A stretch of DNA of 64,000 bases from Acinetobacter sp. NCu2D-2 (GTDB taxonomy: Bacteria > Pseudomonadota > Gammaproteobacteria > Pseudomonadales > Moraxellaceae): NCBI RefSeq assembly GCF_001647675.1, contig NZ_CP015595.1, positions 245,965 through 309,964 of the forward strand, in the 5' to 3' direction. Of the stretch, positions 1 through 29,004 are shown in pieces. The first letter of the stretch is position 1; each line of letters opens with the position of its first letter. Below the pieces are notes generated by a model, which saw only the letters and a list, made by a program, of their open reading frames with translations, did not search any database and was not told the DNA's origin. A program made the translations under genes and the position numbers.

Positions 1-2230
1 TATTTGCGTATTCTGGTGCTAAACGACACAAAGCGATCGGTTTCTTTAAGAGGGGTGATTTGACACAACTTGTCACTACTCCAACAGGGAAACGTCCTGC
101 ATAAATTTCATCACCATGATTGACGGACTCATTACCGTCCAAAATTAATCCCATTAACTTGTGGCGACTCGCAGGATTTTGATTTTGCATGGCTTCCTTG
201 CCAATAAAATCTTCTTCCTTAGTCTTCATAGGTACAGTAAAACCAATACCAGCTTCGTAAGGATTGATATGTGCATCGAATTCATGATTTGCAAAGATAA
301 GACCTGCTTCGATTCGAAGCATATCTAAGGCATCAAAGCCCATTGGTGCCAGTCCATAATTTTTACCTGCTTCCCAAATACTATCCCATAGTTGTTCTGC
401 ATGGTTAGGGTGACACCATATTTCATAGCCCAATTCACCAGTATACCCCGTACGTGACACCATTAGCGGAATGCCCTGAGGCCCGCCAAGTTTAGCCAAA
501 GTGAAATGAAACCATGCAAGGTGTTCAATGTCTGGTTGATGTTCAGGTGTCCAAATGATTTTTCGTAATAAAGCACGGCTATTTGGGCCTTGGACTGCTA
601 AATTATGAATTTGAGATGTTGCATTTCTAATGCTCACCTTAAAGCCCATTTCTAAAGCTTTTTGCTTTAACCAAATACCTGAAAACTCATCTCCACAAAC
701 CCAACGGAAATTATGCAATCCCAATTTGAAAATCGTTCCATCATCAATCATTCCACCAGTTTCTAAACAAGATGCAGAATAAGCGATCTCGCCTATTGCT
801 AATTTGCGTATATTTCGGGTTAACACAGATTGAAGAAAGGTTTCAGCATCTGGACCTACGATATCAAATTTACGCAGAACACTTAAATCCAACAGTGCGA
901 CACGTTCGCGGCAAGCAAAGTATTCTGCTGTGGCGCCAAATCCATCGTATTCATTTGCAATCCAAAAGCCCTTATATTCGCTAATTCTAGAAGTGAGTGA
1001 CTTGATACGATTAAAAAATCCTGATGATTGCGTCATTCTTGGTTGCTCCTCAGGCAGTAAACGATAGTGCTGAGATCGTTTAAAAGTTTCGGTTTCGGCA
1101 TAAATGCGAATATGAATATCTGTAGGGATCCAACCATTGGATGGATCAATATCATCTGGACAGGCAGAGCTAGCGCAGACTAGGTCACGATTGGCACGCA
1201 TTAAAATATAGTCGCCCGGTTGCGACCATGGTTCATCCATACTGATCGTGCCACAGTGTTCGACCATGGTGTTGTAGAAAAAATTAATCGCAGGCCATGA
1301 CGTTCGAGGCGCAATGCCATAGTTTTTAAGTATCTGATTAAAATTATCACTACAGGAAATGTGACCAAAATATCCAGCATCATTATAAAATTTAGGACTA
1401 CATGCCGTTAAAAACATGTCATGGCGTCCGACAGTGTCTTGAACCACTTCTACCATGCTATGTAAGTCTGTGCCGTAAAAGCGTGAATGGAGTCCTGGCT
1501 TTGGCGTGGAATGACCCAATACAGTTCGCGTTGCTACCGCATCAAGTCCAATTTCTTCTCCACGTGCTAAGGCTTCGGCATCAAAGGCTAAAAAATCTGA
1601 ACATTGTTTCCCTGCGACATCAATGACTTGAATCCATTGACCTTTTTTAACCAAATAGCTTCGAGCAGAAGCACGTGGAATATGAATTTCTTGAATGGGC
1701 TTGGCTAGAGGAGGGGGCAAATACTCAAATTTAGGTTGTGCTTTATGCACCTTAATTTGAATTTCCTCACGCTCATGTGAGCTACAAACATCGAGATCAC
1801 TACATGTATTCCATACATAAACATTCACAGCCTCATGAGCGATTAAGCGGGCTGTGTTTTCAGCTTGGAGTTCGAAAAGTTGATCAATAACTTCTGAACC
1901 AAGATCAAATTGAAGCATTTCCTGCTTTAACTGCACTGCGCTCAAACTATTTTGCTGAAGCTGTTTTTGTGATTGACCTGAGGGTTTAGAAGTCAGCTCA
2001 CCATTTAAACATTCAATAGACTTTAATGCAGGTTTACTTGTGAAAGAACGAACCCATATTTCTACTGACTGACTTAAAAGTATGAGCTCAATCTGATCTT
2101 GTGGCTCAAGACAAACTTCAGTGATATGTTGCAAATCTGCACGTAAATGGAGGTTATGAATGGGCTTTTGTAAATTTATAAAGGCTTGGTCTAATACGGT
2201 ATCACTAGATAAGTCAGCGATATGTCCCAT
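1..2230 (-). CDS. tdm: Trimethylamine N-oxide demethylase (Tdm), 3' end beyond window
   Basis: Translation from the ATG at 2230 is open to the window edge (743 codons read, stop not seen). After about 160 unassigned residues comes a DUF1989-type region (about 165-385) with cysteines in GKQCSDF, VEHCGTIS and VCASSACPDD. A GcvT-like tetrahydrofolate-binding region follows (about 405 onward, with SRTGYTGELGYEIW). DUF1989 fused to GcvT is the architecture of TMAO demethylase, which splits TMAO into dimethylamine and formaldehyde, the latter caught by the folate domain. About 30-40 residues are probably missing. The tmm gene 3 kb away supports the call. It is divergent from the histidine kinase gene. 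A related N-demethylase of similar architecture is the main alternative. Confidence 0.85.
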   Translation of the reverse strand, partial: MGHIADLSSDTVLDQAFINLQKPIHNLHLRADLQHITEVCLEPQDQIELILLSQSVEIWVRSFTSKPALKSIECLNGELTSKPSGQSQKQLQQNSLSAVQLKQEMLQFDLGSEVIDQLFELQAENTARLIAHEAVNVYVWNTCSDLDVCSSHEREEIQIKVHKAQPKFEYLPPPLAKPIQEIHIPRASARSYLVKKGQWIQVIDVAGKQCSDFLAFDAEALARGEEIGLDAVATRTVLGHSTPKPGLHSRFYGTDLHSMVEVVQDTVGRHDMFLTACSPKFYNDAGYFGHISCSDNFNQILKNYGIAPRTSWPAINFFYNTMVEHCGTISMDEPWSQPGDYILMRANRDLVCASSACPDDIDPSNGWIPTDIHIRIYAETETFKRSQHYRLLPEEQPRMTQSSGFFNRIKSLTSRISEYKGFWIANEYDGFGATAEYFACRERVALLDLSVLRKFDIVGPDAETFLQSVLTRNIRKLAIGEIAYSASCLETGGMIDDGTIFKLGLHNFRWVCGDEFSGIWLKQKALEMGFKVSIRNATSQIHNLAVQGPNSRALLRKIIWTPEHQPDIEHLAWFHFTLAKLGGPQGIPLMVSRTGYTGELGYEIWCHPNHAEQLWDSIWEAGKNYGLAPMGFDALDMLRIEAGLIFANHEFDAHINPYEAGIGFTVPMKTKEEDFIGKEAMQNQNPASRHKLMGLILDGNESVNHGDEIYAGRFPVGVVTSCVKSPLLKKPIALCRLAPEYAN

Positions 2231-2297
2231 AATTCACCACCAATAGCGTTATTAATTGTGCTGATTTTTACCTGTTTATCAGTCCGGTGCTATTTCT

Positions 2298-2314
2298 CAG
2301 AGGGAATACCTCTG
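2298..2314. promoter_or_regulatory. Inverted repeat between divergent tdm and kinase genes
   Basis: CAGAGG and CCTCTG arms flank a 5-base spacer (GAATA) in the 169-bp divergent intergenic region. It lies 68 bp upstream of the tdm start and about 30 bp upstream of the sigma-54-like element for the kinase. A dyad here could be an operator for the NarL-type regulator encoded next door, but nothing in the sequence proves binding. Confidence 0.3.
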
Positions 2315-2330
2315 TGGAGATAAGTCGAGA

Positions 2331-2347
2331 TTGGCATGATTCATGCT
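2331..2347 (+). promoter_or_regulatory. Possible sigma-54 promoter for the kinase operon
   Basis: TTGGCATGATTCATGCT has a -24 GG and -12 GC separated by exactly ten bases. The -24 half is good. The -12 half reads ATGCT rather than TTGCT, so it is weaker than the other sigma-54 sites in this window. It ends 52 bp before the kinase start. Confidence 0.4.
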
Positions 2348-2399
2348 CAAAAAATATAACTACGAAGAATAATGAGCTGGTTTGGTTAAATAGATCGAA

Positions 2400-3584
2400 A
2401 TGAGTGCAAAAATGATGGGGTTGAAAGAAAATGCATCGTTTGAGCAGGATAAAATAACTACACCTGCACAAGTCGCACAGTTAGAGCAGCAATTGGCGAC
2501 ATATCGATTTGAAGCCTATTGCTTAAGGCTAAAAAATCACATTAGTCGTATTCAAGATCTGAATGCAGAATTACCCAAATGTCTTGAATATCTTAAACAG
2601 CAACAACCGCTTGGGCATGTGCCTGAATTTGCAGTGGTTTTGTGTTATCCCTTTACCCAGGAATGTTTTATCTATCATGCTGTAGAGAGTGGCTTAGGCT
2701 CGGCGACTATTAGTCAAATCCAGCAAACATTATTGCCTTTGTCCTCCCACAGTGACTTAGAAAATTGGACAGAAACTGTGCGGATTGCATCGCATTTAGC
2801 TGATTTAATCATGGTCGGTCAAGATATGATGGTGTGGCGCATGTTTTTGAATGTGAATGAAAAACATCAGATTCATCAGCCCTTTCTGCGACAGCTTGAT
2901 GAAACTATTCAGCAAGGGTTTCAAGAACGCGATCTACAAAAACGACATATTCAAGACGTATTGGAACAAGAGCGCAGAGCCTTTTCGGCAGATTTACATG
3001 ACAGTATTGCGCAAATTCTAGGTTTTTTAAGACTCAAGTCTGCACAGCTCAGCCAACAATGTAAGCAACTACCAGATATGCAATTGGCCAACCAAGCTGA
3101 GGAAATTGCCAGTTATACCCATTACGCCTATCAGCAAGTGCGTGAGTTAATTACGGCATCACGTTTGGCTTATCAAGAACTTGATTTTATTGTCGCGCTG
3201 AAAAAAATCATCACAGAGTTTGAGCAGCAGTCTGGCATTGTGTTTGAACTTGATCATCGGGTGCATCATGTCGCTATTCAACCCAAACAATCTGTTCAAG
3301 TGCTGTATATCGTGCGTGAAAGCTTAAGCAATGTTGTCCGTCATGCACATGCTTCTCATGCCAAGATCATGCTAGATGTGGAAGCTGAGCAACTGCATCT
3401 TAAAGTTTTAGACAATGGTCAAGGGATTCAACCTGACTTAAAACGTAAAGACAGTTTTGGGTTAGAAATCATGCAAGAACGGGCTGGTCGGATTGACGCG
3501 CAGCTTCGTATTTATCCAGCAACACCACAAGGCACCTGTGTGGAATTAAAATTGGCACTGAAAGGGGAGAATGCAGATGTCTAA
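2400..3584 (+). CDS. Cytoplasmic NarX/DegS-type sensor histidine kinase
   Basis: A 394-aa HisKA_3-class kinase. Residues 1-170 are an unassigned input region with no membrane segments, followed by a coiled-coil-like linker. The phosphorylation box is ADLHDSIAQ with His200. The ATPase region has an N-box (RESLSNVVRHAH), a G1 box (LDNGQGI) and a final SFGLEIMQERA stretch. It should phosphorylate the NarL-type regulator whose gene overlaps its 3' end. The position between tdm and tmm suggests that it controls methylated-amine genes in response to an intracellular signal, which is inference from location. Confidence 0.85.
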   Translation: MSAKMMGLKENASFEQDKITTPAQVAQLEQQLATYRFEAYCLRLKNHISRIQDLNAELPKCLEYLKQQQPLGHVPEFAVVLCYPFTQECFIYHAVESGLGSATISQIQQTLLPLSSHSDLENWTETVRIASHLADLIMVGQDMMVWRMFLNVNEKHQIHQPFLRQLDETIQQGFQERDLQKRHIQDVLEQERRAFSADLHDSIAQILGFLRLKSAQLSQQCKQLPDMQLANQAEEIASYTHYAYQQVRELITASRLAYQELDFIVALKKIITEFEQQSGIVFELDHRVHHVAIQPKQSVQVLYIVRESLSNVVRHAHASHAKIMLDVEAEQLHLKVLDNGQGIQPDLKRKDSFGLEIMQERAGRIDAQLRIYPATPQGTCVELKLALKGENADV

Positions 3585-4272
3585 AATTCAAGTCAGTATT
3601 GTCGATGATCATGCGCTCTTTAGACGAGGTGTCGTGGATCTTATTTGTCAATCAAGCCACTTCAGTTTGCTACAAGAATATCAGGCCGGTCAGGATTTTT
3701 TAAATGAGATGCACGCCCAGTGCCCCGATATTTTATTACTTGATATACAAATGCCGACCATGTCAGGTCTAGAGGTGTTAAAGACTTTAAATTCACGGCA
3801 ACATCCGTTCAAAATTGTCATGCTTACTGCATGTGAAGATGAACAAGCGTTATTGGATGCATTACGTTATGGTGCACATGGTTTTTTAGCCAAAGATACG
3901 TTGCCTGAACTAATTTTAGAGCACTTGCAACAGGTATATGTCGGTAAGACTGTCTTACAAGAGCGCTCAATTGACATTTTGGCACAGCAATTTCGATCAA
4001 GAGAACATGTAGTGCTCAGTCCACCCGCGCAAAATCATCCAGTCTGGTTGCATGATATGACGCAACGTGAACAAGAAACCTTAAGACTAATTGCCAAAGG
4101 ATTAAACAATAAACTCATTGCACGCGAGCTTGGCATTAGTGATGGCACGGTAAAAGTATATGTAAAAAATTTACTTCGGAAACTGAATGTGCATTCGCGC
4201 TTAGAACTTTCGGTATGGGCACATCAAAATTTAAACTTGGCTGCCCTTGATCCTATGAAGGAGCATGAATAA
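3577..4272 (+). CDS. NarL/FixJ-family response regulator
   Basis: A receiver domain (residues 1-120, acidic pair VDDH, likely phospho-acceptor Asp56 in LLLDIQMP) is joined to a LuxR-type helix-turn-helix (MTQREQETLRLIAKGL through DGTVKVYVKNLLRKL). An ATG also exists at 3571, but GGGGAG at 3564-3569 sits 7 bases before 3577 and only 1 base before 3571, so 3577 is preferred. The gene overlaps the kinase gene by 8 bp and is co-translated with it. Predicted cognate regulator; targets unknown but probably the adjacent tdm/tmm/dmm genes. Confidence 0.88.
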   Translation: MSKIQVSIVDDHALFRRGVVDLICQSSHFSLLQEYQAGQDFLNEMHAQCPDILLLDIQMPTMSGLEVLKTLNSRQHPFKIVMLTACEDEQALLDALRYGAHGFLAKDTLPELILEHLQQVYVGKTVLQERSIDILAQQFRSREHVVLSPPAQNHPVWLHDMTQREQETLRLIAKGLNNKLIARELGISDGTVKVYVKNLLRKLNVHSRLELSVWAHQNLNLAALDPMKEHE

Positions 4273-5061
4273 ATGTTATCTGTGAGGTCTGAAATTTATG
4301 CGAGTCAACAGGATGTTTTACTGGACAGTTGTTGGAGTCCGGTATTTGATCAGCTCAAAGAATGGGTCATTTTATTTGATGAGAACTTACAGATTTTAAA
4401 AGCCAATGTGGCATGGAGAAATTTTGATCAAGGAAGGTTACAAGCACTGAATCGTTATATATATCCTGAAGACCTCTATGTCTGTGTCAAAGAAATGCAG
4501 TCACAGAGTACACAATCGGTTTATCTCCGTTTGATTCATTCCGATCAATCTTTGAGATGGATTGACGCCAATATTCAAAAAATTGAAGTGCCAGACAAAA
4601 GTTCACTGCAAAAGCGACAATTGTGGTGCTTACTTGCGCGAGAGCAAACTGAACAGATCAATGCTCGCTCAATAAAAGATGCGCAGCAACGTATGCTTAG
4701 AGGTATTTTACAGCGAATGCCGATGATGCTGTACCGATCACGGAATAATCGTGACTGGACGATGGAATATGTCAGTGAGGGGTGTAAAAAAATAACAGGT
4801 CATAGCGAAAAAGAATTAATCAACACGCCTTTATATGGGCAATTGATTCACCCACATGATCGAGATGATGTTTGGCACAATATCCAACTTGCTTTAGAAG
4901 TGCATCAAAGTTTTCATATTCGTTATCGATTGATGACTGCACAACAACAGACTCAATGGGTACAGGAAATTGGTCAAGGGGTTTACTCGCAAAGTGGTAT
5001 GGTACTCGGTATTGATGGTATTGTTTTCCAAACACAAGCAGAACGCGAATTTATACCCTAA
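4273..5061 (+). CDS. Tandem PAS-domain protein without an output domain
   Basis: A 262-aa protein starting on the base after the regulator's stop codon, so clearly the third cistron of the kinase operon. Two PAS folds are visible: residues about 18-115 (EWVILFDENLQILKANVAWRNF) and about 150-258 (PAS_3 type, with MEYVSEGCKKITGHSEKEL and a terminal GIDGIVFQT strand). No kinase, GGDEF, EAL or DNA-binding domain follows. It could be a sensory partner of the kinase or bind a small ligand or cofactor. No membrane segment or signal peptide is seen. Confidence 0.75.
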   Translation: MLSVRSEIYASQQDVLLDSCWSPVFDQLKEWVILFDENLQILKANVAWRNFDQGRLQALNRYIYPEDLYVCVKEMQSQSTQSVYLRLIHSDQSLRWIDANIQKIEVPDKSSLQKRQLWCLLAREQTEQINARSIKDAQQRMLRGILQRMPMMLYRSRNNRDWTMEYVSEGCKKITGHSEKELINTPLYGQLIHPHDRDDVWHNIQLALEVHQSFHIRYRLMTAQQQTQWVQEIGQGVYSQSGMVLGIDGIVFQTQAEREFIP

Positions 5062-5154
5062 GGCTTACTCATTCTGAGGAATGTCCAGTCAAGATCACAC
5101 GCGCTAATTTAATTGCAACGTCGAATTTTTGACATTCAACATGGGAGAATCACC

Positions 5155-6522
5155 ATGACACGCGTTGCAATTATAGGGGCAGGGCCAAGCGGGATGGCGC
5201 AATTAAGAGCGTTTCAATCTGCACAAGCCAAAGGAATTGAAATTCCAGAAATCGTTTGCTTTGAGAAACAATCGGATTGGGGAGGGCAATGGAATTACAC
5301 ATGGCACACTGGGATGGATGAACACGGCGAACCTGTACACAGCAGTATGTATCGCTATTTATGGTCGAATGGTCCAAAAGAATGTTTAGAGTTCGCCGAT
5401 TATAGTTTTGATGAACATTTTGGTCGCCCTATTGGGTCTTATCCACCGCGCGCGGTGCTTTGGGACTATATTAAGGGGCGTGTTGAAAAAGCCAATGTTC
5501 GCCAATATGTCCGTTTCAATACAGCAGTGCGCTATGTCAGTTATGACGATAACAGCAGCCAATTTAGCGTTACCGTACAAGATTATGATCAGGACAGGAT
5601 CTATACTGAAGTCTTTGACTATGTCGTGGTAGCTTCAGGACATTTCTCGACACCAAGAATTCCCGAGTATCCCGGTTTTGAACAGTTTGGCGGACGTATT
5701 TTACATGCGCATGATTTCCGCGATGCACTCGAGTTTAAAAACAAAACAGTTCTGATTGTCGGTAGTAGTTATTCAGCCGAAGATATTGGCTCACAATGTT
5801 ATAAATACGGTGCTAAACGTATTATAAGTTGCTACCGCACGGCACCTATGGGCTATCATTGGCCCGAAAATTGGACTGAATGCCCGCAGCTCACCCATGT
5901 AGATCAAACGCATGCCTTTTTCCAAGATGGAACTTCAGCCGAAGTGGATGCCATTATTTTATGTACAGGCTATCTGCACCATTTTCCATTTATGACGGAG
6001 TCTCTACGTCTTAAAACCAATAATATTTTGTATCCTAAACATCTGTATCAAGGGGTGGTGTGGGAGCAAAACCCAAAACTGTTTTATTTGGGGATGCAAG
6101 ACCAGTGGTATTCCTTCAATATGTTTGATGCCCAAGCATGGTTTGCTCGTGATGTGATATTGGGTCAAATTACATTGCCAAGCCTGAGTGAGATGCAAGC
6201 GGATACAGAAGCATGGCATGAGGCGGAAAAATCTCTAGAAGATGTACACGCGATGTACAAGTTTCAGGGAGATTATATTATGCGGTTGATTGAGCAGACG
6301 GATTATCCAACCTTCAATATTGAAGGTGTACGCCAAACCTTCTTGGCATGGAAAAAACATAAGAAAGAAAACATCATGACCTTTAGGGATCATACCTATA
6401 GGTCTTTAATCACAGGTACAATGGCTACGCCACATCATACGTCATGGCTTGAAGCTTTGGATGATTCTCTAGAGGCTTACTTAGCCACGAAAGCCACTGA
6501 AATACAGCAAAAAGCAGGCTAA
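5155..6522 (+). CDS. tmm: Trimethylamine monooxygenase (flavin-containing)
   Basis: A 455-aa class B flavin monooxygenase that converts trimethylamine plus O2 and NADPH to TMAO. It has an FAD motif ([12 protein letters not shown]), the FMO-identifying region [11 protein letters not shown] and an NADPH-binding motif ([19 protein letters not shown]), which read like bacterial Tmm. The ATG at 5155 is preceded by GGGAGAA at the right distance; an in-frame TTG at 5113 lacks a ribosome site. Its partner enzyme Tdm is encoded nearby on the other strand. A trailing hairpin terminator at 6552-6584 separates it from the dimethylamine genes. Other N-oxidising FMOs are the alternative. Confidence 0.88.
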
Positions 6523-6584: not shown

Positions 6585-6702
6585 ATCTTTTTAAGTTTTA
6601 ACAAAGCTTTACCTCAAAGGGGGTATGTTTTTTAGGGAATGTTCGACTGCCTTAGAATCCTTTAAATATAAAGCTATCAGTAATTAAGCAGGATACGCTG
6701 CC

Positions 6703-7224
6703 ATGTCCAATGCCATGTACAGCACACCGATTTATCAGGACTATCCAGACATTCGTGCCTATGCATTAGGGTATGTCATTGTGCTTGAAACAGATGATGA
6801 CGCTCTACTTGTAAAGATTTATGAACATTTAACACCTGAAGCTCCCTATCACGTCTTAATTCAAGCCTCGCTTGGTGAACAAGGTCTGATGGACGTCAAA
6901 AAGGTATTACAACAATATCTTAGTCAAGCCAAAGCAGGCATACATATAGTCGTGGCTGGCAGTGAAGCTTTTCTTTGGCAAATTCAGCAAACAATGGCTT
7001 CACAAGGCTGTTTGCGTGATGAATACAGTTTGATTGTTGCGGGTGAAGCACAAAGATTGGTGTATTGCGTGCATTGTGGGCATCAGCAATTGAGTGCTGT
7101 ATCTGATTTTTGTCACTGTGAGTCCTGTGGTGTGCATTTACTGATTCGTACTCATTTTTCACAGCGTTTAGGGGCATATATGGGCGTGTGTGCCAATGCC
7201 CAACAACCGATGGGAGTTCAATGA
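6703..7224 (+). CDS. dmmA: DmmA-family small subunit of dimethylamine monooxygenase
   Basis: A 173-aa protein with no catalytic signature. Its C-terminal third has clustered cysteines (C122, C125, C137, C139, C142), which look like a zinc-ribbon or metal site. Its place at the head of the reductase, heme subunit and folate subunit genes matches the small subunit of the heme-dependent oxidative N-demethylase / dimethylamine monooxygenase system (DmmA family). The stop codon overlaps the next start (ATGA). AGGA lies a suitable distance upstream of 6703; a second ATG at 6715 is possible. The family assignment leans on context, and the letter naming of subunits in the literature should be checked. 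Confidence 0.7.
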   Translation: MSNAMYSTPIYQDYPDIRAYALGYVIVLETDDDALLVKIYEHLTPEAPYHVLIQASLGEQGLMDVKKVLQQYLSQAKAGIHIVVAGSEAFLWQIQQTMASQGCLRDEYSLIVAGEAQRLVYCVHCGHQQLSAVSDFCHCESCGVHLLIRTHFSQRLGAYMGVCANAQQPMGVQ

Positions 7225-8168
7225 TGAGCACATCTGTTCAGGTTCGTGTCAAAGCAATTCAGCCCATCACACCCGTCATTAGTGAATTTAGTTTTGAGCC
7301 GGTTGACCAAGATTTACCTGCATTTTCATCAGGTAGCCACATTGTCGTGGAATTGCCATTAGCAGATCGCGTTATTCGGAATGCCTATTCATTACTAAAT
7401 GATCCTTTTGATTATCGGGAATATAAAGTTGCGGTGCGTTTGCAGGAACAGTCTCGTGGTGGTTCACAATATTTACATCAACAGGTGAAAGTCGGTGATC
7501 ACTTACAGGTCTCTGCACCATTAAATCTATTCGCACTGCATTCTCAAGCACGTCACCATATTTTTATCGCGGGTGGGATTGGCATAACGCCATTTATGTC
7601 ACACATGCGTTATATGTTGCATGCAGGGGCTAGTTTTGAATTGCACTATGCGTGTCGTGATGGCATTAGCAATGCCTATGAAAACGAGCTGAAAAGCTTA
7701 TTTCAAGATCACGTCCATATCTATTCGGAAAAAACTGCACAACGTTTAGATGTTGATACTTTGCTTCGCAAGCAACATTTAAACACACATGTGTATATCT
7801 GTGGTCCAGATCGTTTAATCAAAGCAGTCGCACATAGCGCAGAACAATTGGGATGGTCAGCCAACCGTGTCCATTGGGAAGCATTTAGTTCACCTGCACC
7901 TGGCTTACCCTTTGATGTTGAGTTGACTCAATCTCTCCGAAAAATTCATGTAGCTAGTGATTTTAGTTTACTTGAAGCCTTAGAGGCAGAAGGTATTTAC
8001 CTGCCGAACTTATGCCGTGGTGGCGTGTGTGGACAGTGTGCAACTGGCTATAGCCAAGGTGAAGTGGAACATCTCGATCATTATTTAAGTGTCCAAGAAC
8101 AACAACGATTATTGATGCCTTGTGTATCACGTGCCAAAGAAGGGCAATGTCTATATCTCGACCTATAA
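7221..8168 (+). CDS. Reductase subunit of dimethylamine monooxygenase (PDR/VanB family)
   Basis: A phthalate-dioxygenase-reductase-like flavoprotein: flavin-binding RNAYSLLNDP, pyridine-nucleotide loop AGGIGITPFMSH and a C-terminal plant-type [2Fe-2S] domain (CRGGVCGQC plus a later PCVS cysteine). It would pass electrons from NAD(P)H to the heme subunit. The start is 7221, overlapping the previous stop, or 7224 (Met2), which has the better spacing from GGGAG at 7212. It corresponds to the beta subunit of heme-dependent oxidative N-demethylase. Confidence 0.85.
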   Translation: MMSTSVQVRVKAIQPITPVISEFSFEPVDQDLPAFSSGSHIVVELPLADRVIRNAYSLLNDPFDYREYKVAVRLQEQSRGGSQYLHQQVKVGDHLQVSAPLNLFALHSQARHHIFIAGGIGITPFMSHMRYMLHAGASFELHYACRDGISNAYENELKSLFQDHVHIYSEKTAQRLDVDTLLRKQHLNTHVYICGPDRLIKAVAHSAEQLGWSANRVHWEAFSSPAPGLPFDVELTQSLRKIHVASDFSLLEALEAEGIYLPNLCRGGVCGQCATGYSQGEVEHLDHYLSVQEQQRLLMPCVSRAKEGQCLYLDL

Positions 8169-10719: not shown

Positions 10720-11094
<375 letters not shown>

Positions 11095-16219: not shown

Positions 16220-16230
16220 GGAGATTGAGC

Positions 16231-20546: not shown

Positions 20547-21619
20547 TAAAACTTGAAGTGCGACATAAACCACCTAATTAATTTAAAGGGTTTATGGAGT
20601 ATATAAAATTGTCATACCATCATCTTAACTTTGAAGATCGTACTGCATTAATGCTTGAGTCAAGAAAAGAAGGCTTTTCACCCAGAAAATTTGCTGAACT
20701 CATTAAAAGACATCCTAGTACGATCTATCGTGAGCTTAAAAGAAATAGCATCAATGACGTTTATCAAGCTCAATATGCTTCTGATAACACCTTCGCTAGA
20801 CGTAGACGTGGTCACAGAAAACTCAAAATCGATTCAATCCTCTGGAAATTTATTGTTGAAGCGATCCGTTGTTTATGGTCTCCTCAGCAAATAGCAAAGC
20901 GTTTAAAGAGATTTCCTGATTTGGATCAAACAATGAATGTAAGCCATACAACGATTTATTCAACGATACGAGCATTACCAAAGGGTGAGCTGAAAAAAGA
21001 CTTACTATCCTGTCTGCGTCATGAAAATAAAAAGCGAAAAGCTAACGGTGAACCTAAAAAAGATTCTATATTACAGGATATTAAAACTATTCATGAGCGC
21101 CCAACCGAAGTTCAAGAAAGAAAAATACCGGGTCATTGGGAAGCCGATTTAATTAAAGGTAAAGACAATAAAAGTTCGATAGCAACACTTATTGAACGAA
21201 ATACACGGCTCTGTATCTTGGCAACATTACCTGATGCAAAGGCAGAATCAGTGCGCAAGGCTTTAACTGAAGCTCTGAAATATTTACCCGCAGAACTGCG
21301 TAAAACATTGACCTATGACCGTGGACGTGAGATGTCAGAACATAAAATCCTCGAAGAAGATTTAGGCATAGATGTATATTTCTGTGACCCACATTCGCCA
21401 TGGCAGAAAGGCACATGCGAAAATATGAATGGTTTAATTAGGCAATATTTACCTAAAGGGATTGATTTAAACCAGGCAGATCAGCATTATTTAAATCAAG
21501 TTGCCATGTCACTGAATACTCGCCCTAGAAAAGCGTTAGATTGGCTTACACCATTAGAGAAATTTGCTCAGCTTGTTGATTATCATAAGGCTTTTGAAAC
21601 TGTCGCACCTCATGTTTGA
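20547..21619. mobile_element. IS30-family insertion sequence (ISAba125-like)
   Basis: Imperfect terminal inverted repeats (19 bp, four mismatches, shared inner core GTGCGACA) at 20547-20565 and 21601-21619 flank a single intact IS30 transposase gene. The right repeat overlaps the transposase stop. About 1.07 kb in total, like ISAba125. No target duplication is evident, so the ends may be a few bases off or the insertion old. Confidence 0.8.
20594..21619 (+). CDS. IS30-family transposase
   Basis: A 341-aa transposase with an N-terminal HTH_38 domain (FAELIKRHPSTIYRELKRN) and a DDE integrase core: Asp in GHWEADLIKGKDNKS, Asp in TYDRGREMSEH and Glu in WQKGTCENMNGLIRQYLPKG. No internal stop or frameshift, so it is probably active. 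Confidence 0.93.
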   Translation: MEYIKLSYHHLNFEDRTALMLESRKEGFSPRKFAELIKRHPSTIYRELKRNSINDVYQAQYASDNTFARRRRGHRKLKIDSILWKFIVEAIRCLWSPQQIAKRLKRFPDLDQTMNVSHTTIYSTIRALPKGELKKDLLSCLRHENKKRKANGEPKKDSILQDIKTIHERPTEVQERKIPGHWEADLIKGKDNKSSIATLIERNTRLCILATLPDAKAESVRKALTEALKYLPAELRKTLTYDRGREMSEHKILEEDLGIDVYFCDPHSPWQKGTCENMNGLIRQYLPKGIDLNQADQHYLNQVAMSLNTRPRKALDWLTPLEKFAQLVDYHKAFETVAPHV

Positions 21620-21729: not shown

Positions 21730-23043
21730 TCAGGGGTTATATGCGCTTTCGTTATGATCCGTTTTATCTAGACCAGTTTCTTCTTCTTCTTCAGTTACTC
21801 GTAATGGCATGATTAAGCCTACAATTTTGAGTAGAAGCCATGACAATACGCCTACATAAATGAATGTAAAGATGATACTTGCGATTTGTGCAAGAATCTG
21901 TGGAACAACAGAAATATCCTCAACGTTTCCGCCAAGTGCTGGCAAACAGAAGATCGCTGTTAAAATACATCCAGTAACACCACCTATACCATGTACAGAG
22001 AATACATCCAAAGCATCATCTGCACCTAATTTGCGTTTAAGTACTGTAATTGCGTAATACACTGCAATACTTGTGAAGAAGCCAACACAAATTGCACCAA
22101 ATGGACCAACGAAAGCAGCGGCAGGGGTAATACCGACTAGCCCGGCAATTGCACCTGAAGCAAGACCAAAAGCGGTTACATGTCCAGCTGAGATCTTTTC
22201 AATTAGCATCCAACCTGCAATACCGCCCAAGGTTGCTAACATCGTAGTCATAAAGATAAGTGAAGAAGAGCCATCAATAGCTAAAGCTGAGCCTACGTTA
22301 AACCCAAACCAGCCTGCCCAAAGAAAAGCTGCACCAATCAGAACAAATACTACATTGTGTGGTGGAGTCGGTGTAGTTGGCCAACCTTTACGTTTACCGA
22401 GTACTAATGCACCCACGAAAGATGTCACACCTGCACTGATATGTACGGCAGTACCACCAGCAAAATCTAATACACCCCAATTGTGGAACAATGCACCATC
22501 ACCGCCCCATACCATATGCGCTAAAGGTCCATAAACAATTACAGTCCACAGTGCTGCAAAAAGTACCATCGCACCAAAATGCATACGCTCTGCAAATCCA
22601 CCTAAAGCAATTGCTGGTGTAATCATGGCAAAAGTCATTAGAAACAGAATCACAATATATTCTGGAATTCCACCTGCCATACTGTCAGGTGTAATACCTA
22701 TCAAAAATGCAGTATTTAATCCACCGACGAAGCTTCCTAAGTTGTAAACCCCTTCTTGCATGCCTGTGGTATCTGTAGCCAAGCTATATACAACGACAAC
22801 CCATAAGATACCGACAATGCTCGCGATTGCAAAAAACTGACTAAAAACAGAAAGGATATTTTTAGAACGAACCATACCCCCGTAGAACAGTGCGAGCCCT
22901 GGTATAAACATCAATAATACAATGACTGTTGATACCATGACCCACACCGTTGCTGGTGCATCAATAGCATCTGCTGCAAATGCTAATGCTGGAAACAGCA
23001 ATAAACATGCAAGTATTAATTTTTTTAAACTCTGCAACATCAT
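21730..23043 (-). CDS. amtB: Ammonium/methylammonium transporter AmtB
   Basis: A 437-aa Amt protein with a cleavable signal peptide (about residues 1-23, ending LAFAADA) and about 11 membrane helices. The conserved pore histidines sit in AVHISAGVTSF and FSVHGIGGVTG. It imports ammonium and can also carry methylammonium, which fits its position between the mgd and gmaS-mgs genes. A good sigma-54 promoter lies upstream, while its usual partner glnK is 10.7 kb away. Confidence 0.95.
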   Translation of the reverse strand: MMLQSLKKLILACLLLFPALAFAADAIDAPATVWVMVSTVIVLLMFIPGLALFYGGMVRSKNILSVFSQFFAIASIVGILWVVVVYSLATDTTGMQEGVYNLGSFVGGLNTAFLIGITPDSMAGGIPEYIVILFLMTFAMITPAIALGGFAERMHFGAMVLFAALWTVIVYGPLAHMVWGGDGALFHNWGVLDFAGGTAVHISAGVTSFVGALVLGKRKGWPTTPTPPHNVVFVLIGAAFLWAGWFGFNVGSALAIDGSSSLIFMTTMLATLGGIAGWMLIEKISAGHVTAFGLASGAIAGLVGITPAAAFVGPFGAICVGFFTSIAVYYAITVLKRKLGADDALDVFSVHGIGGVTGCILTAIFCLPALGGNVEDISVVPQILAQIASIIFTFIYVGVLSWLLLKIVGLIMPLRVTEEEEETGLDKTDHNESAYNP

Positions 23044-23151: not shown

Positions 23152-23168
23152 AAGCAATTCATATGCCA
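23152..23168 (-). promoter_or_regulatory. Sigma-54 promoter of amtB
   Basis: Minus strand: TGGCAT, five bases, TTGCT, with GG and GC exactly ten bases apart, 109 bp before the amtB start. Consistent with NtrC-type nitrogen control. Confidence 0.75.
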
Positions 23169-23616: not shown

Positions 23617-23617
23617 A

Positions 23618-23661: not shown

Positions 23662-24261
23662 TTATTCCTCATGATGAGTGGAATAATTCACCATTGATAT
23701 AAGACGAATTGGTACTTTTATTAGTTGTTCTGGACCATGTGGGATTTCACCTTCTAAAGTCAAACAGTCTCCAGGTTGTAAATGAAAGATTTCATCGCCA
23801 TGTCGATAAGCAATTTCACCCTCAATCATATATAACATCTCAGTACCAGGATGAGCAAATGTTGGAAACTCCTCGCTAGCATCGTCCATACTGACTAAAT
23901 AAGCTTCGAAGTTTTTATGCGGTCCACGTGAATGAGTCAGTAAATGATAAGTATGTCCTTTATCTGTACCACGACGTACAACTTCCATACCTTCGCCCTT
24001 TTTCACCAGCATAGCGTGACTTTCCTGTTGGTCGTATTGGCTAAATAAAGTTGATAACGGAATTCCTAGTACTTCACACAAACGGCTTAAAGTTTCCAAA
24101 CTAGTCGAGACCTGAGCATTTTCAATTTTGCTGAGCATACCTTGGCTGATTTCTGCAATCTGTGCCACTTCAGCAAGCTTAAGGCCCTGCTCCTGGCGGT
24201 AACGTTTAATATGGATGCCAATATATTGTTCCAGCTTCATACTATTTTTGTTCTGTCTCAT
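23662..24261 (-). CDS. XRE-family regulator with C-terminal cupin domain
   Basis: A 199-aa protein. The HTH is at residues about 15-70 (KLAEVAQIAEISQGMLSKIE) and a cupin at about 115-195 (FAHPGTEMLYMIEGEIAYRHGDEIFHLQPGDCLTLEGEIPHGP is the metal-site-like core, positions about 133-176). Such proteins sense a small ligand through the cupin and repress or activate nearby genes. It is divergent from gmaS-mgsABC and is the natural candidate for its specific regulator. Met8 (24240) is an alternative start; neither start has a strong ribosome site. Confidence 0.85.
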   Translation of the reverse strand: MRQNKNSMKLEQYIGIHIKRYRQEQGLKLAEVAQIAEISQGMLSKIENAQVSTSLETLSRLCEVLGIPLSTLFSQYDQQESHAMLVKKGEGMEVVRRGTDKGHTYHLLTHSRGPHKNFEAYLVSMDDASEEFPTFAHPGTEMLYMIEGEIAYRHGDEIFHLQPGDCLTLEGEIPHGPEQLIKVPIRLISMVNYSTHHEE

Positions 24262-24417: not shown

Positions 24418-24434
24418 TTGGCAAGGGATTTGCT
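24418..24434 (+). promoter_or_regulatory. Sigma-54 promoter of gmaS-mgsABC
   Basis: TTGGCAAGGGATTTGCT matches the -24/-12 consensus closely (GG and GC ten bases apart). Transcription would start near 24445, leaving a leader of about 90-100 bases. Confidence 0.8.
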
Positions 24435-24542
24435 TTCTTAATAGGAAAGTAAGTTTCTTAAGCTGAATAATGTGATTCCAATAAAAAGATTTGCATTTTT
24501 CGAGCCAACAGTCGTTTTTGTCATATCGGGAGTATGTCAATT

Positions 24543-25934
24543 ATGTTGCAACAGGCCGTAAACGAGTTGTTTGATCAACAGAATATAATCAGCAAACCCA
24601 TGTATCGTCCAGAGGTACAGCAAGTCATTGATCAACATAATCTGAAATATGTATTGGCTCAATTTGTCGATATTCATGGTGCTGCTAAAACTAAGTCAGT
24701 ACCTATCTCAGGTCTAAAAGCCATTGAGGGTGATGGAGTTGGTTTTGCCGGTTTTGCAATTTCAGGTATGGGAATGCAACCGCATGGACCTGATTTTATG
24801 GTGAAAGGTGATTTATCTGATTTAACCCCAGTACCTTGGCAACCAGGTTATGGTCGTGTGGTCTGTGAAGGTTACGTGAATGGTCAACCCCATCCGTATG
24901 ACTCACGCTATGTATTACGTCGTCAGGTCGAGCGTTTATCTGCTAAAGGTTGGACTTTAAACACAGGTCTAGAGCCTGAATTCAGCCTGTTCCGTCGTAC
25001 TGAAGACGGCAAACTCAAAATGGTCGATGATTCTGACAACTTAGATAAGCCATGTTATGACTACAAAGGATTATCACGTTCACGTGAGTTTTTGGAAAAA
25101 TTAACTGAAGCACTTATCCCTGTTGGTTTTGATATTTATCAAATTGATCATGAAGATGCGAATGGTCAATTTGAAATTAACTATACCTATGCTGATGCAA
25201 TGAAATCAGCAGATATGTTTACTTTCTTCCGTATGGCGGCAGGTGAGATAGCCAATGATTTGGGCATGATTTGCTCTTTTATGCCAAAACCTGATCCGAA
25301 GCGTGCTGGGAACGGTATGCACTTCCATTTATCTATTGGAAGCAGTGAATCCAAAAATCTTTTCCACGATCCAAGTGACCCAAGTGGTATGGGTTTATCA
25401 AAAATGGCTTATCACTTTATTGCGGGTCTGTTAAAGCATGGTCCAGCACTTTGTGCATTCTGTGCTCCGACTGTGAATTCCTATAAACGCCTTGTGGTAG
25501 GCCGCTCACTATCTGGTGCGACATGGGCCCCAGCATTTATTGCCTATGGTTCAAATAACCGTTCTGCAATGGTCCGTATTCCGTATGGTCGTATTGAATT
25601 ACGTTTGCCAGATGCAGGCTGCAACCCATATTTAGTATCCGCGGCAATTATTGCAGCTGGTCTCGATGGTATTGAAAATGAGCTTATGCCACCTGAAGCG
25701 TGTAATGAAAACTTATATGAATTAAGCCTTGAAGAAATTGCAGCACGTGGTATCGCAACATTACCTCAGTCACTTAAAGAAGCAGTGGAGGCATTAAAAG
25801 CTGATCCATTATTTCGTGAAAAACTAGGTACTGAAATTGTCGATGAGTTTATCCATCAAAAGAGTATGGAATGGGTGGAATACTGCCGTCATGTGTCTGA
25901 TTGGGAAATTCAACGTTATACCGAATTCTTTTAA
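24543..25934 (+). CDS. gmaS: Gamma-glutamylmethylamide synthetase
   Basis: A glutamine-synthetase-like protein (463 aa from 24543, 466 from the ATG at 24534). CGGGAG at 24527-24532 is 10 bases before 24543 and only 1 before 24534, hence the choice. Key GS motifs: [34 protein letters not shown] and [19 protein letters not shown]. GmaS ligates methylamine to glutamate using ATP. The assignment over ordinary GS rests on the three NMG synthase genes immediately downstream. Confidence 0.9.
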
Positions 25935-25973
25935 AACATTTAAAAAAATTTAAAAATCTCATGGAGAATGATT

Positions 25974-26885
25974 ATGTGTGGAATTGTTGGTTTATATCTT
26001 AAAAATCCTGCTTTGGAATCAGAATTAGGTAAATTATTTGAACCGATGCTTGAGTCAATGACGGGTCGAGGACCGGATAGTGCAGGCTTTGCCATTTATG
26101 GTGATGAAGTGCAAGAAGGTTGGGTCAAACTCACTTTACAAACTACGGACGAAGCATATATTTGGGACACTTTTATTGCCGAACTTACAACTGAACTAAA
26201 TGCAGAATTAGACTGGTTTACCAATGCGACTGCAGCAGTAATTAAAGTAAAGGCGGATGAGGATACTGTCCGTGGAGTGATCGCTAAAATTGCCCCACAG
26301 CTGAAAATTATGAGTGCTGGGCTAAGCATCGAAATTCTAAAAGGTATGGGCTTGCCAGTCGAAATTTCTGAGCGCTTTGGTCTTTCAAAAATGAAAGGTA
26401 GCCATATCATCGGGCATACCCGTATGGCAACAGAGAGTGCCGTAACGATGGAAGGTAGTCATCCATTTTCTACCGGTGCGGATTTGTGTCTGGTACACAA
26501 CGGCTCACTATCAAATCATTCACGCTTACGTCAAGAATTAAAACGTGAAGGCATTCATTTTGAAACAGACAATGATACTGAAGTTGCAGCTGGATATTTG
26601 ACCTGGCGTCTACAACAAGGTGATAGCTTGGCTCAAGCACTCGACAATGCTCTCGAAGATTTAGATGGTTTCTTTACTTTTGCCATTGGCACCAAAGACG
26701 GTTTTGCAGTGATCCGTGATCCAATCGCATGTAAACCTGCTGTACTAGCTGAAACTGATGATTACGTTGCAATGGCATCTGAATATCAAGCACTTGCATC
26801 GCTTCCAAATATTGATAAAGCCCGAGTTTGGGAACCAGAGCCTGCCACTTTATATGTGTGGGAACGTTCAAAAGATGCCGCTTAA
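25974..26885 (+). CDS. mgsA: N-methylglutamate synthase subunit A (class II amidotransferase)
   Basis: A 303-aa Ntn-type glutamine amidotransferase domain. The start at 25974 gives MCGIVGLY, placing the nucleophile Cys at position 2; GGAG at 25963-25966 is 7 bases upstream. An ATG at 25968 would bury the nucleophile. Other motifs are GRGPDSAGFAIY, GHTRMATESAV and VHNGSLSNH. In NMG synthase this subunit handles the amide of gamma-glutamylmethylamide, freeing methylamine for transfer to 2-oxoglutarate. Confidence 0.9.
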   Translation: MCGIVGLYLKNPALESELGKLFEPMLESMTGRGPDSAGFAIYGDEVQEGWVKLTLQTTDEAYIWDTFIAELTTELNAELDWFTNATAAVIKVKADEDTVRGVIAKIAPQLKIMSAGLSIEILKGMGLPVEISERFGLSKMKGSHIIGHTRMATESAVTMEGSHPFSTGADLCLVHNGSLSNHSRLRQELKREGIHFETDNDTEVAAGYLTWRLQQGDSLAQALDNALEDLDGFFTFAIGTKDGFAVIRDPIACKPAVLAETDDYVAMASEYQALASLPNIDKARVWEPEPATLYVWERSKDAA

Positions 26886-26915
26886 ATTGAAATAGAACAA
26901 ATTTGGAGAATGAAT

Positions 26916-27641
26916 ATGAATAGTGCAGTTGCAGAACAATTAAATGCTGTTGAATTAAAAAATCACTATGACTTAAGCATCGATACGATCCGTGAACTTA
27001 ATCAAGCCTTACACGATGCTAAAGTTATTGCAGAAATCAAAGAATGGACGGTGAGCAATCCTGCTGGTCAACACAATATTGCAGTAGGTATTAAAGCGCC
27101 AGTAAAAGTCACTATTGATGGTCATGCTGGCTATTACTGTGCCGGAATGAATCAGGAAGCTGACATTATTGTAAATGGCAATGTTGGTGTGGGCTGTGCA
27201 GAAAATATGATGTCCGGTTCGGTACACGTTAAAGGAAATGCATCACAAGCAGCAGGTGCTACAGCACATGGTGGTTTGCTGGTCATTGACGGTGATGCAG
27301 GTGCACGTTGCGGTATTTCTATGAAAGGTGTCGATATTGTTGTAGGTGGCAACATTGGCCATATGAGCTGTTTTATGGGACAAGCAGGCCGTTTAGTGGT
27401 TTGTGGTGATGCTGGTGATGCACTAGGTGACTCACTTTACGAAACCCGTATCTATGTGAAGGGAACAGTTAAATCACTGGGTTCTGACTGCATTGAAAAA
27501 GAAATGCGTCAGGAGCACCTTGATGAACTGGCAGAGCTATTAGCAAAGGCTGGATTTGATGAAGATCCAAAATCATTTAAACGCTACGGTTCAGCGCGTC
27601 AGCTGTATAACTTTAAAGTCGATAACGCATCTGCATACTAA
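26916..27641 (+). CDS. mgsB: N-methylglutamate synthase subunit B (GXGXG domain)
   Basis: A 241-aa right-handed beta-helix protein like the C-terminal GXGXG domain of glutamate synthase large subunit (repeats GNVGVGCAENMMSGSVHVKG, GDAGARCGISMKGVDIVVGG, GNIGHMSCFMGQAGRLVVCG). It is a structural scaffold coupling the other two subunits. GGAG spacing favours the start at 26916 over 26910. Confidence 0.9.
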   Translation: MNSAVAEQLNAVELKNHYDLSIDTIRELNQALHDAKVIAEIKEWTVSNPAGQHNIAVGIKAPVKVTIDGHAGYYCAGMNQEADIIVNGNVGVGCAENMMSGSVHVKGNASQAAGATAHGGLLVIDGDAGARCGISMKGVDIVVGGNIGHMSCFMGQAGRLVVCGDAGDALGDSLYETRIYVKGTVKSLGSDCIEKEMRQEHLDELAELLAKAGFDEDPKSFKRYGSARQLYNFKVDNASAY

Positions 27642-27669
27642 TTGATAACGTAATACGGAGAATAAGATC

Positions 27670-29004
27670 ATGACTCAAACTTACCAAGAATACGAACCAG
27701 TGTTACGTGAATCTGCAACATTCGATCGTTTAGCGATTCAGGAAATTCAACGTGCAGCTGCAACGGGTATTTATGATATCCGCGGTGGCGGTACTAAACG
27801 TAAAGTCCCTCATTTTGATGACTTACTGTTATTAGGTGCAAGCATGTCACGTTATCCATTAGAGGGATATCGTGAAAAATGTGGTACGGATGTGGTACTC
27901 GGTACACGTTTTGCCAAAAAACCTATTCATCTAAAAATTCCTGTCACCATTGCCGGCATGAGCTTTGGTGCTCTCTCTGCCAATGCTAAAGAATCTTTAG
28001 GCCGTGGCGCATCAATGGTGGGTACATCAACCACTACTGGTGATGGTGGTATGACACCTGAAGAGCGTGGTCATTCAGAAACTTTAGTGTATCAATACCT
28101 GCCATCACGTTATGGTATGAATCCAGATGATTTGCGCAAAGCCGATGCAATTGAAATTGTATTAGGTCAAGGTGCAAAACCGGGAGGTGGCGGTATGCTA
28201 CTTGGCATGAAAGTCACTGAACGTGTAGCTGGTATGCGTACTTTACCGGTTGGTGTGGATCAACGCAGTGCTTGTCGTCATCCTGACTGGACAGGTCCAG
28301 ATGATCTTGCAATCAAGATTGCGGAAATCCGTGAAATCACAGATTGGGAAAAACCAATTTATGTAAAAATTGGTGCAAGCCGTCCGTACTATGACGTGAA
28401 GCTAGCTGTAAAAGCGGGTGCTGATGTAATCGTACTTGATGGTATGCAAGGTGGTACAGCAGCAACACAAGAAGTCTTTATTGAGCATGTAGGTATCCCA
28501 ATTCTTCCTGCCATTCCGCAAGCGATTCAAGCGCTGCAAGAAATGGGTATGCACCGTAAAGTTCAACTGATCGTATCAGGTGGTATTCGTACGGGTGCAG
28601 ATGTGGCTAAAGCAATGGCTTTGGGCGCAGACGCCGTAGCAATTGGTACTGCAGCTTTGATTGCATTAGGTGATAACCATCCACGTTTGGATAAAGAATT
28701 GAAAGAAATCGGTTCAGCAGCAGGTTACTACGATGATTGGCAAAATGGCCGTGACCCTGCAGGTATTACGACTCAAGATCCTGAGCTTTCTAAGCGTTTG
28801 GATCCAGTTGAAGGTGGACGTCATTTAGCAAACTACCTGCGTGTATTAGTATTAGAAGCGCAAACGATGGCTCGAGCATGTGGTAAATCACACTTACACA
28901 ATCTCGATCCTGAAGATTTAGTTGCACTGAATGTTGAAGCTGCAGCTATGGCACGTGTACCACTTGCAGGAACGAACTGGATTCCAGGACAAGTTCAGTA
29001 TTAA
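27670..29004 (+). CDS. mgsC: N-methylglutamate synthase subunit C (FMN glutamate synthase domain)
   Basis: A 444-aa protein equivalent to the central FMN-binding synthase domain of GltB. The barrel has KIGASRPYYDVKLAVKAGA, VIVLDGMQGGTAATQEV and LIVSGGIRTGADVAKAMALG. It carries out reductive transfer of methylamine onto 2-oxoglutarate to give N-methylglutamate. It ends the gmaS-mgsABC operon, followed by a long hairpin. Confidence 0.92.
   Translation: MTQTYQEYEPVLRESATFDRLAIQEIQRAAATGIYDIRGGGTKRKVPHFDDLLLLGASMSRYPLEGYREKCGTDVVLGTRFAKKPIHLKIPVTIAGMSFGALSANAKESLGRGASMVGTSTTTGDGGMTPEERGHSETLVYQYLPSRYGMNPDDLRKADAIEIVLGQGAKPGGGGMLLGMKVTERVAGMRTLPVGVDQRSACRHPDWTGPDDLAIKIAEIREITDWEKPIYVKIGASRPYYDVKLAVKAGADVIVLDGMQGGTAATQEVFIEHVGIPILPAIPQAIQALQEMGMHRKVQLIVSGGIRTGADVAKAMALGADAVAIGTAALIALGDNHPRLDKELKEIGSAAGYYDDWQNGRDPAGITTQDPELSKRLDPVEGGRHLANYLRVLVLEAQTMARACGKSHLHNLDPEDLVALNVEAAAMARVPLAGTNWIPGQVQY

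Follow-up and report, generated by a model that had tools for sequence, protein, structure and literature searches.

The 3.05-Mb genome of Acinetobacter sp. NCu2D-2 comprises two contigs; the 64-kb window analyzed here is the terminal part (C2:245965-309964) of the smaller one, which is 309,964 bp long, and its first 29 kb carry genes for the predicted breakdown of trimethylamine to glutamate together with a histidine kinase, a response regulator and a PAS-domain protein that probably form their switch. A Rep3-type replication protein is encoded at ~209 kb on contig C2 (~310 kb), which is likely a plasmid. Open frames for Tdm, Tmm, DmmABC and DmmD, GmaS, MgsABC, MgdABCD, FolD, two copies of PurU, AmtB and GlnK occupy window positions 1-29004 (Table 1). 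The initial annotation of this DNA had proposed a nearly complete trimethylamine-to-glutamate pathway here, and every gene on its list is indeed an open frame matching its expected family. It had listed PurU, of which there are two copies, and its Tdm is truncated by the window edge, the full gene (779 aa) being present on the genome. Its list had also left out the kinase, the response regulator, the PAS protein, an XRE-cupin regulator and the spread of the module on plasmids.

We assigned enzyme identities from curated NCBIfam models with cut-offs, from Pfam, and from matches to solved structures in the PDB; Tmm, DmmA, GmaS, both PurU copies, AmtB and FolD passed their curated models. Tmm scored 811 bits against an equivalog cut-off of 675, and its best solved matches were flavin-containing monooxygenase (FMO) and Tmm structures at 579-821 bits, including 6kbw, "Trimethylamine monooxygenase" (589 bits), and led by the flavin-containing monooxygenase 2xve (821 bits), which we take to be Methylophaga mFMO. 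Tdm has a DUF1989 + GCV_T architecture and best matched the solved trimethylamine N-oxide demethylase 9q59 (744 bits, residues 159-779); the piece inside the window, truncated at the edge, scored 966 bits on NF053776, whose curated cut-off is 1100. DmmA, a reductase and a HODM-type alpha subunit are encoded adjacently, and DmmC aligned to the haem-dependent N-demethylase HODM (5lte) over 337 residues at 550 bits. GmaS reached 682 bits (cut-off 470) on a model named "type III glutamate-ammonia ligase", and its nearest solved relative is a glutamate-methylamine ligase at 667 bits, followed by 7cql (presumably RhGmaS itself) at 307, with glutamine synthetases at 272 or less. By pattern comparison, its active site is of the GmaS type: the residues described for RhGmaS (Q175/D177/E179/E186/N188, W300/R312/R317, and Ala replacing Asp50 of glutamine synthetase; PMC7948447) recur with matching spacing as Q203.D.E......E.N, W331-R343-R348 and F71-A72, and the ammonia residue of glutamine synthetase is absent. 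MgsABC correspond to the amidotransferase, GXGXG and flavin mononucleotide (FMN) pieces of glutamate synthase, in three separate genes after gmaS.

Two parts of the initial annotation need qualification. It had described a four-gene dimethylamine monooxygenase; all four genes are present, but because R. pomeroyi dmmABC alone is active in E. coli, with dmmD required for growth on methylated amines (PMC5520151), we regard DmmABC as the enzyme and DmmD as a folate-binding partner. It had also stated that the pathway would be refuted if the closest characterised relatives were glutamine synthetase, sarcosine oxidase and unrelated FMOs; this does not apply to GmaS, Tmm and Tdm, but MgdC does have sarcosine oxidase alpha as its closest match among solved structures (436 bits). 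The four Mgd subunits match sarcosine-oxidase-type models (soxA/B/D/G), all under their cut-offs, and no solved Mgd relative exists for matching, which counts against a firm assignment; that their substrate is N-methylglutamate rather than sarcosine is suggested mainly by context.

These identities support a complete predicted pathway. Tmm would oxidize trimethylamine to its N-oxide, Tdm would split the N-oxide into dimethylamine and formaldehyde, and DmmABC would convert dimethylamine to monomethylamine, with formaldehyde passed to tetrahydrofolate by the folate domain of Tdm and by DmmD. GmaS would then join monomethylamine to glutamate, MgsABC would turn the product into N-methylglutamate, MgdABCD would yield glutamate and methylene-folate, and FolD and PurU would carry the one-carbon unit to formate. 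We infer that the host probably uses methylated amines as a nitrogen source, a view that gains support from the sigma-54-type promoters described below and from the presence of amtB and glnK in the module.

A kinase-regulator-PAS unit lies between tdm and tmm, consisting of a histidine kinase, a NarL-type response regulator and a tandem-PAS protein. As in the NarX/NarQ-NarL systems, the kinase is of the HisKA_3 type and its partner of the NarL type, yet the unit differs from those systems in its extra tandem-PAS protein, in its tie to methylated-amine genes and in its kinase. NarX and NarQ are nitrate sensors that span the membrane and carry a periplasmic sensor domain. By hydropathy the kinase here is no membrane-spanning protein of that kind, as it contains no transmembrane stretch (maximum 19-residue hydropathy 1.20, against 2.56 and 2.43 for the controls AmtB and SMR). 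Kinase and regulator also fall under the NCBIfam NarQ and NarL cut-offs. The phospho-acceptors (kinase H200, regulator D58) are invariant in 19 sequences, as is most of the helix-turn-helix of the regulator, including K195/V196/K199, which presumably correspond to the DNA contacts of NarL. Structure models of the kinase and of the PAS tandem gave generic matches.

We compared the tdm-kinase intergenic region across 30 loci, comprising 19 from Acinetobacter (window included) and 11 of 14 others with tdm and the kinase gene as divergent neighbors. TGGCAY-N6-TGC, which we take to be the -24/-12 consensus arrangement of sigma-54 promoters, occurs on the kinase strand in all 30 and on the opposite strand in none, against 0.145 expected from shuffles, a comparison weakened by the fact that the pattern was composed after the alignment had been viewed and that the loci are related, which inflates the significance of the shuffles. 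An extended version of the pattern occurs six times in the window (1.04 expected; 0 of 100 shuffles reach six), preceding the kinase gene, amtB, urtA, nirB, the nitrite transporter gene and one transposase gene. RpoN is encoded on contig C1.

Upstream of the sigma-54 element in the tdm/kinase stretch lies a 7-2-7 inverted repeat that resembles NarL sites; the best 7-2-7 sites are similar to the engineered NarL site TACCCCTAAAGGGGTA (PMC4549865). We built a 33-base profile from tdm promoters alone (16 non-redundant of 26 accepted sites) and scored the upstream regions of other genes with a threshold of 7.3, corresponding to 99% of the null; as the null includes true sites and the loci are related, the resulting figures are indicative. 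The profile exceeded this line in 27 of 32 tmm upstream regions (16/19 in Acinetobacter, 11/13 elsewhere) and in 17 of 25 dmmA upstream regions (17/19 in Acinetobacter, window included, and 0/6 elsewhere). For 13 other genes, among them gmaS (0/19), mgdA (0/17) and amtB (0/29), the line was passed in just 7 of 307 upstream regions, and there was likewise no recurrence before mgs. The dmmA site of the window (6610-6625) is the top-scoring place outside the training promoter in the whole 64 kb. As judged by this profile, the dmmA site is an Acinetobacter feature, with dmm mostly uncovered elsewhere; outside Acinetobacter, dmmD or another gene may lead the dmm operon. A first candidate for a tmm site in the window (5066-5081) was dropped, as it scored under the line and profile alignment places the site of its relatives further upstream.

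The distribution of these genes was surveyed in 175 Acinetobacter genomes. DmmC occurs in 19 of them and Tdm and the PAS gene in the identical 19, the PAS gene being found in 0 of the 156 others, so that it serves as a marker that tracks Tdm and DmmC without exception. Twenty-four genomes contain GmaS and 44 contain a Tmm relative, each set including all 19 Tdm genomes. Because DmmC, Tdm and the PAS gene share the same 19 genomes, and GmaS those plus five, chance is excluded as an explanation. The kinase-regulator-PAS unit is divergent from tdm in 19/19 genomes (window included), also where other parts have been relocated. An XRE-cupin gene is divergent from gmaS in 17/17 tdm genomes whose gmaS locus was examined (window included), and likewise in both of the two examined among the five gmaS genomes without tdm. 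Because the XRE-cupin gene accompanies gmaS both with and without tdm, these data suggest two layers, one for methylamine (marked by GmaS, 24 genomes) and one for trimethylamine and dimethylamine that has been added in 19.

The association extends beyond the genus. A search of 390 genomes from the order, made with the Nitrincola homologue, found 17 with the PAS protein, 31 with Tmm and 15 with both, the last being the 15 best Tmm matches (at least 71% identity). With our own genome excluded, Tmm occurs in 14 of 16 PAS genomes and in 16 of 373 without PAS (Fisher p 1e-15). The 14 other genomes with PAS and Tmm represent eight genera in five families; within the 20 kb around the PAS gene, all 14 encode Tdm, 13 encode Tmm and 11 encode DmmC. 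A large protein search returned 45 PAS relatives, and among the names listed for them ten give an organism, nine of these being Acinetobacter and one Nitrincola. Among the 80 loci listed for kinase relatives, 5 represent the Acinetobacter unit and 75 are matches of 27-40% identity.

Several observations weigh against so unified a picture. No convincing NtrC site was found near the sigma-54 element of the kinase gene in the window (best 4 mismatches). The tmm promoter of the window itself scores 4.6, under the 7.3 line, leaving regulation of tmm unsupported at its own locus, and outside Acinetobacter the dmmA site is found in 0/6 regions by profile and in 3/10 by a looser mismatch count. By mismatch count, 7-2-7 sites are not enriched in the window (8 against 6.1 expected), and because this is not above chance we relied only on the comparative evidence for these sites. 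Outside the genus, two genomes with the PAS gene (G227 and G276) lack both Tmm and Tdm in its vicinity. Finally, 25 Acinetobacter genomes contain a Tmm relative (69-74% identity to the Tmm of the window) without Tdm or DmmC; they define a second Tmm-like group, which may act on a different substrate, for example dimethyl sulfide.

We wondered whether the unit might instead sense nitrate, redox state or oxygen and be a mere neighbor of the pathway. Kinase and regulator are relatives of NarQ and NarL, nitrite assimilation genes lie ~9 kb to the right of the module, the top TM-score of the tandem-PAS model among 50 structures listed (0.41) belongs to the redox sensor domain of MmoS (3ewk), and the two PAS genomes without tdm and tmm nearby fit such a role. 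This reading is nonetheless unlikely, given that the PAS gene follows tdm across Acinetobacter and that the site trained on tdm recurs at tmm and at Acinetobacter dmmA but not at gmaS, mgs, mgdA or amtB. Our preferred reading, that the unit controls the pathway, would operate as follows. Under nitrogen shortage the sigma-54 promoter would be switched on via an activator, and kinase, regulator and PAS protein would be made. An internal methylated amine, or a product of it, would be sensed by the PAS protein and by the kinase, whose sequence indicates a cytosolic location. Once phosphorylated, the NarL-type regulator would bind the 7-2-7 sites upstream of tdm, of tmm at most loci and, in Acinetobacter, of dmm. 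The XRE-cupin protein would control gmaS-mgsABC separately.

Whether the pathway primarily supplies nitrogen is a separate matter, since it could work mainly in detoxification or in carbon and energy supply. Carnitine-derived trimethylamine inhibited a Psychrobacter lacking tdm (PMC6514802), the module contains an SMR exporter gene, and the two purU copies would favor a high one-carbon flux. Against such a role stand amtB, glnK and the sigma-54-type elements in the module, with similar elements before urea, nirB and nitrite transport genes, and no internal source of trimethylamine was found: neither of the two Rieske oxygenases detected in the genome has carnitine monooxygenase as its closest relative. 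We had considered carnitine as such a source and rejected it within the reach of this search, as carnitine monooxygenase is last of 29 listed solved relatives for one of these two Ring_hydroxyl_A proteins and absent from the 26 listed for the other. We consider a main role in detoxification or carbon supply quite unlikely, and give a probability of roughly three in four to the reading that the module is mobile, combines a complete predicted pathway with a likely dedicated two-component switch, and probably lets its host use external trimethylamine and its breakdown products as nitrogen source.

The SMR gene, which lies between the two purU copies, bears on a further possibility, namely that the upstream part of the module deals with dimethylamine that arises from metformin or some other xenobiotic, a situation found in wastewater bacteria. 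Its product is closer to Gdx/SugE than to EmrE/Qac proteins (104-106 bits to 8vxu/6wk5, presumably Gdx-Clo, against 48-49 for EmrE), yet short of the NCBIfam SugE cut-off. Besides its place in the module, such a gene lies near dmmC or dmmD in 7 of the 14 loci of other genera and on a Pseudomonas plasmid described below, and export of guanylurea by Gdx together with dimethylamine use has been described (PMC9800807). However, among the proteins scanned in window 1-61518 (a subset of the frames) no ureohydrolase-type metformin hydrolase was recognised, and tmm and tdm would be superfluous for such a role, which makes this origin of the dimethylamine very improbable. As an observation in its own right, SMR genes of the SugE/Gdx type recur near dmm genes in several families (L164-L169, L173, L065).

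To follow the module on plasmids, we surveyed 72,556 plasmid records. Tdm and GmaS occur in the same 19 Acinetobacter records and Tmm in 21 that include these; DmmC occurs in 19, of which 18 are listed, all within the Tdm/GmaS set, and we infer that the nineteenth is CP033753, where the gene spans the record start. Six of the 19 records are labelled A. baumannii; five come from human samples and eight from cattle or cow faeces, and the further sources include a stork, a brewery and a pulp mill. Of these counts, those by source refer to all 19 records. Outside Acinetobacter, one plasmid (Aquabacterium olei CP029211) has all four markers (DmmC, Tdm, Tmm, GmaS). Gene order on plasmid LoGeW2-3 is identical to that in the window, including the two purU genes flanking the SMR gene. 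An A. indicus plasmid from a cow shares 99.88% identity over 11.2 kb with an A. baumannii plasmid from a human sample, and the figure is 99.94% for an A. baumannii plasmid from a pulp mill and one of the cattle strain ANC 7881. The window, by contrast, is 72-74% identical to the seven plasmids with which it was compared, in alignments covering 7.6-10.3 kb. In three other Acinetobacter genomes (G012, G092, G149) tdm-tmm-dmm lie on 2.3-3.3 Mb contigs, and in several the parts are scattered over the genome or contigs, and for these reasons the module is not plasmid-confined. The module, pathway and switch included, is probably mobile.

Decay or silence of an acquired gene set is extremely improbable. 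An IS30 element does lie inside the stretch, and plasmid CP024012 carries transposases and other inserts in the same gap, but the enzyme frames are open, their lengths resemble those annotated in LoGeW2-3, and their order is kept there and on other plasmids. Taking regulation and transfer together, we put it at somewhat better than even that the three-protein switch is the master regulator by which Acinetobacter and no fewer than eight further genera of its order control trimethylamine breakdown, that it is expressed from a sigma-54 promoter when nitrogen is scarce, senses internal methylated amines and turns on tdm and tmm (and, in Acinetobacter, dmm) via 7-2-7 sites, and that pathway and switch move on plasmids between Acinetobacter species. 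What the data show directly is the gene content, its co-occurrence across genomes, the conservation of gene order and of DNA elements, and the near-identity of plasmid copies from different species; the activities, the signal, the binding to DNA and the growth phenotype in this scheme are predictions from sequence.

Marine Roseobacters are the best-studied users of trimethylamine as a source of nitrogen. The pathway of Ruegeria pomeroyi and its relatives likewise consists of Tmm, Tdm, DmmABC(D), GmaS, MgsABC and MgdABCD (PMC5520151, PMC13390433), but its described regulators are the AraC-type TmaR, encoded beside mgd, and the GntR-type TmoR (PMC13390433), in place of the kinase-NarL regulator-PAS unit and XRE-cupin protein found here. 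TmaR also occurs in some Gammaproteobacteria, and the main text of the same article does not contain the terms two-component, histidine kinase, response regulator, PAS domain or Acinetobacter (PMC13390433). The proteins scanned in window 1-29004 gave no AraC or GntR match, so that by this measure no TmaR gene lies within the module; AraC-type proteins do occur outside the module, at 53822-54760 and, by sequence, to the left of tdm, neither having been compared with TmaR.

Other plasmids with methylated-amine genes are known, including, by the title of its report, Paracoccus pAMV1. Rhizobium plasmids have tmm, tdm and dmm, but none passed the GmaS cut-off used, while A. olei CP029211 resembles the Acinetobacter plasmids in its DmmC, Tdm, Tmm and GmaS matches. 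The Pseudomonas RW109 plasmid (LT969519) likewise has a PuuR-like regulator, glnT/gmaS, mgsABC, amtB, dmmABCD and SugE in a row, but the 37 kb viewed contain no tmm or kinase-regulator-PAS match, and the sole Tdm match is partial, in an annotated aminomethyltransferase beside an mgdD-like gene. In the case described here, a single molecule carries the route to glutamate together with the switch, amtB and glnK. Pathway enzymes and the plasmid location of such genes are already known, and a passing statement in PMC6514802 notes trimethylamine-use genes in Acinetobacter genomes. Beyond that statement, no account of Acinetobacter gmaS or trimethylamine use was found in the literature searched, nor any two-component system for the tmm/tdm/dmm pathway; the likely regulatory unit, not found in that literature, is of another type than the Ruegeria regulators.

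If our reading is correct, the full chain on plasmids of Acinetobacter from cattle, stork, industry and human samples would mean that animal-associated species could exploit trimethylamine, a product of gut and decay. The switch would also explain how the pathway is controlled without the regulators described in Ruegeria, and it comes with named DNA sites.

Table 1. Features of the trimethylamine module, in window coordinates (THF, tetrahydrofolate).
Feature	Position	Strand	Remarks
tdm, trimethylamine N-oxide demethylase (DUF1989 + GCV_T)	1..2230	-	final 36 residues beyond window; NF053776 + PDB 9q59
predicted NarL-type 7-2-7 site, tdm/kinase intergenic	2307..2322		centre 85 bp before tdm start codon
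sigma-54-type -24/-12 promoter element, directed at kinase gene	2332..2346	+	30/30 loci
soluble NarQ/NarX-type histidine kinase	2400..3584	+	no transmembrane stretch; H200 invariant
NarL-type response regulator	3571..4272	+	NarL model 194 bits, cut-off 250; D58 invariant
tandem-PAS protein without recognised output domain	4273..5061	+	
tmm, trimethylamine monooxygenase	5155..6522	+	ATG 5155 preferred over TTG 5113 of listed frame
predicted NarL-type 7-2-7 site	6610..6625		centre 85-86 bp before dmmA
dmmA	6703..7224	+	NF041259 97 bits, cut-off 60; PF22289
dmmB, PDR/VanB-type reductase	7224..8168	+	frame opens 7188; annotated on homologous plasmid as PDR/VanB family oxidoreductase
dmmC, haem-dependent N-demethylase alpha subunit	8194..9219	+	frame opens 8122; PF11927; PDB 5lte
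dmmD, folate-binding GCV_T protein	9257..10387	+	family models
glnK, P-II protein	10720..11058	-	Tyr51 present; Pfam P-II above cut-off; NCBIfam P-II models 175 and 170 bits, under cut-offs 181 and 202
purU copy 1, formyl-THF deformylase	11188..12051	-	TIGR00655 above cut-off
SMR exporter, SugE/Gdx-like	12253..12573	+	SugE model 117.5 bits, cut-off 126
purU copy 2	13182..14048	+	TIGR00655 above cut-off
folD	14045..14938	+	family models
mgdA, putative N-methylglutamate dehydrogenase subunit (soxB-like)	14981..16219	+	family models
mgdB (soxD-like)	16225..16560	+	family models
mgdC (soxA-like, GCV_T domain)	16557..19466	+	family models
mgdD (soxG-like)	19470..20132	+	family models
IS30 transposase, separating mgd from amtB	20594..21619	+	
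amtB	21730..23043	-	sigma-54-like element upstream at 23153-23168 (minus)
XRE-cupin (PuuR-like) regulator, divergent from gmaS	23662..24261	-	
gmaS, gamma-glutamylmethylamide synthetase	24534..25934	+	
mgsA, class-II amidotransferase	25968..26885	+	likely true start gives N-terminal Cys
mgsB, GXGXG protein	26910..27641	+	
mgsC, glutamate-synthase-type FMN subunit	27670..29004	+	

Several further features of the molecule deserve mention. The two divergent purU copies form a mosaic whose nucleotide identity is 68% across the initial 290 aligned bases, rises to 89% in the central part and ends at 85%, which suggests gene conversion. To the right of the module (29317-46515) lie genes for a urea-binding protein, a urease operon with a fused gamma-beta subunit, an ANTAR regulator, a nirB-like nitrite reductase, a Rieske-reductase fusion and a formate/nitrite transporter, which are further nitrogen-acquisition sets on the same molecule; urtA, ureC and nirB were not among the matches listed for 42 other loci compared. 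Adjoining the nitrite transporter gene, a protein phosphatase 2C domain is fused to a serine/threonine kinase domain (44791-46515). A cytochrome P450 is fused to a ferredoxin-reductase part that matches a DmmA-like N-terminal model (55606-57918), and an IS605 OrfB/TnpB-type protein contains a Cas12f1-like domain (60214-61518). The region to the left of tdm (C2:225965-245964) presumably holds a Rieske ring-hydroxylating dioxygenase operon and genes for a branched-chain-type ABC transporter, a GMC oxidoreductase and an aldehyde dehydrogenase; the nearest solved structures of this dioxygenase are aromatic dioxygenases.

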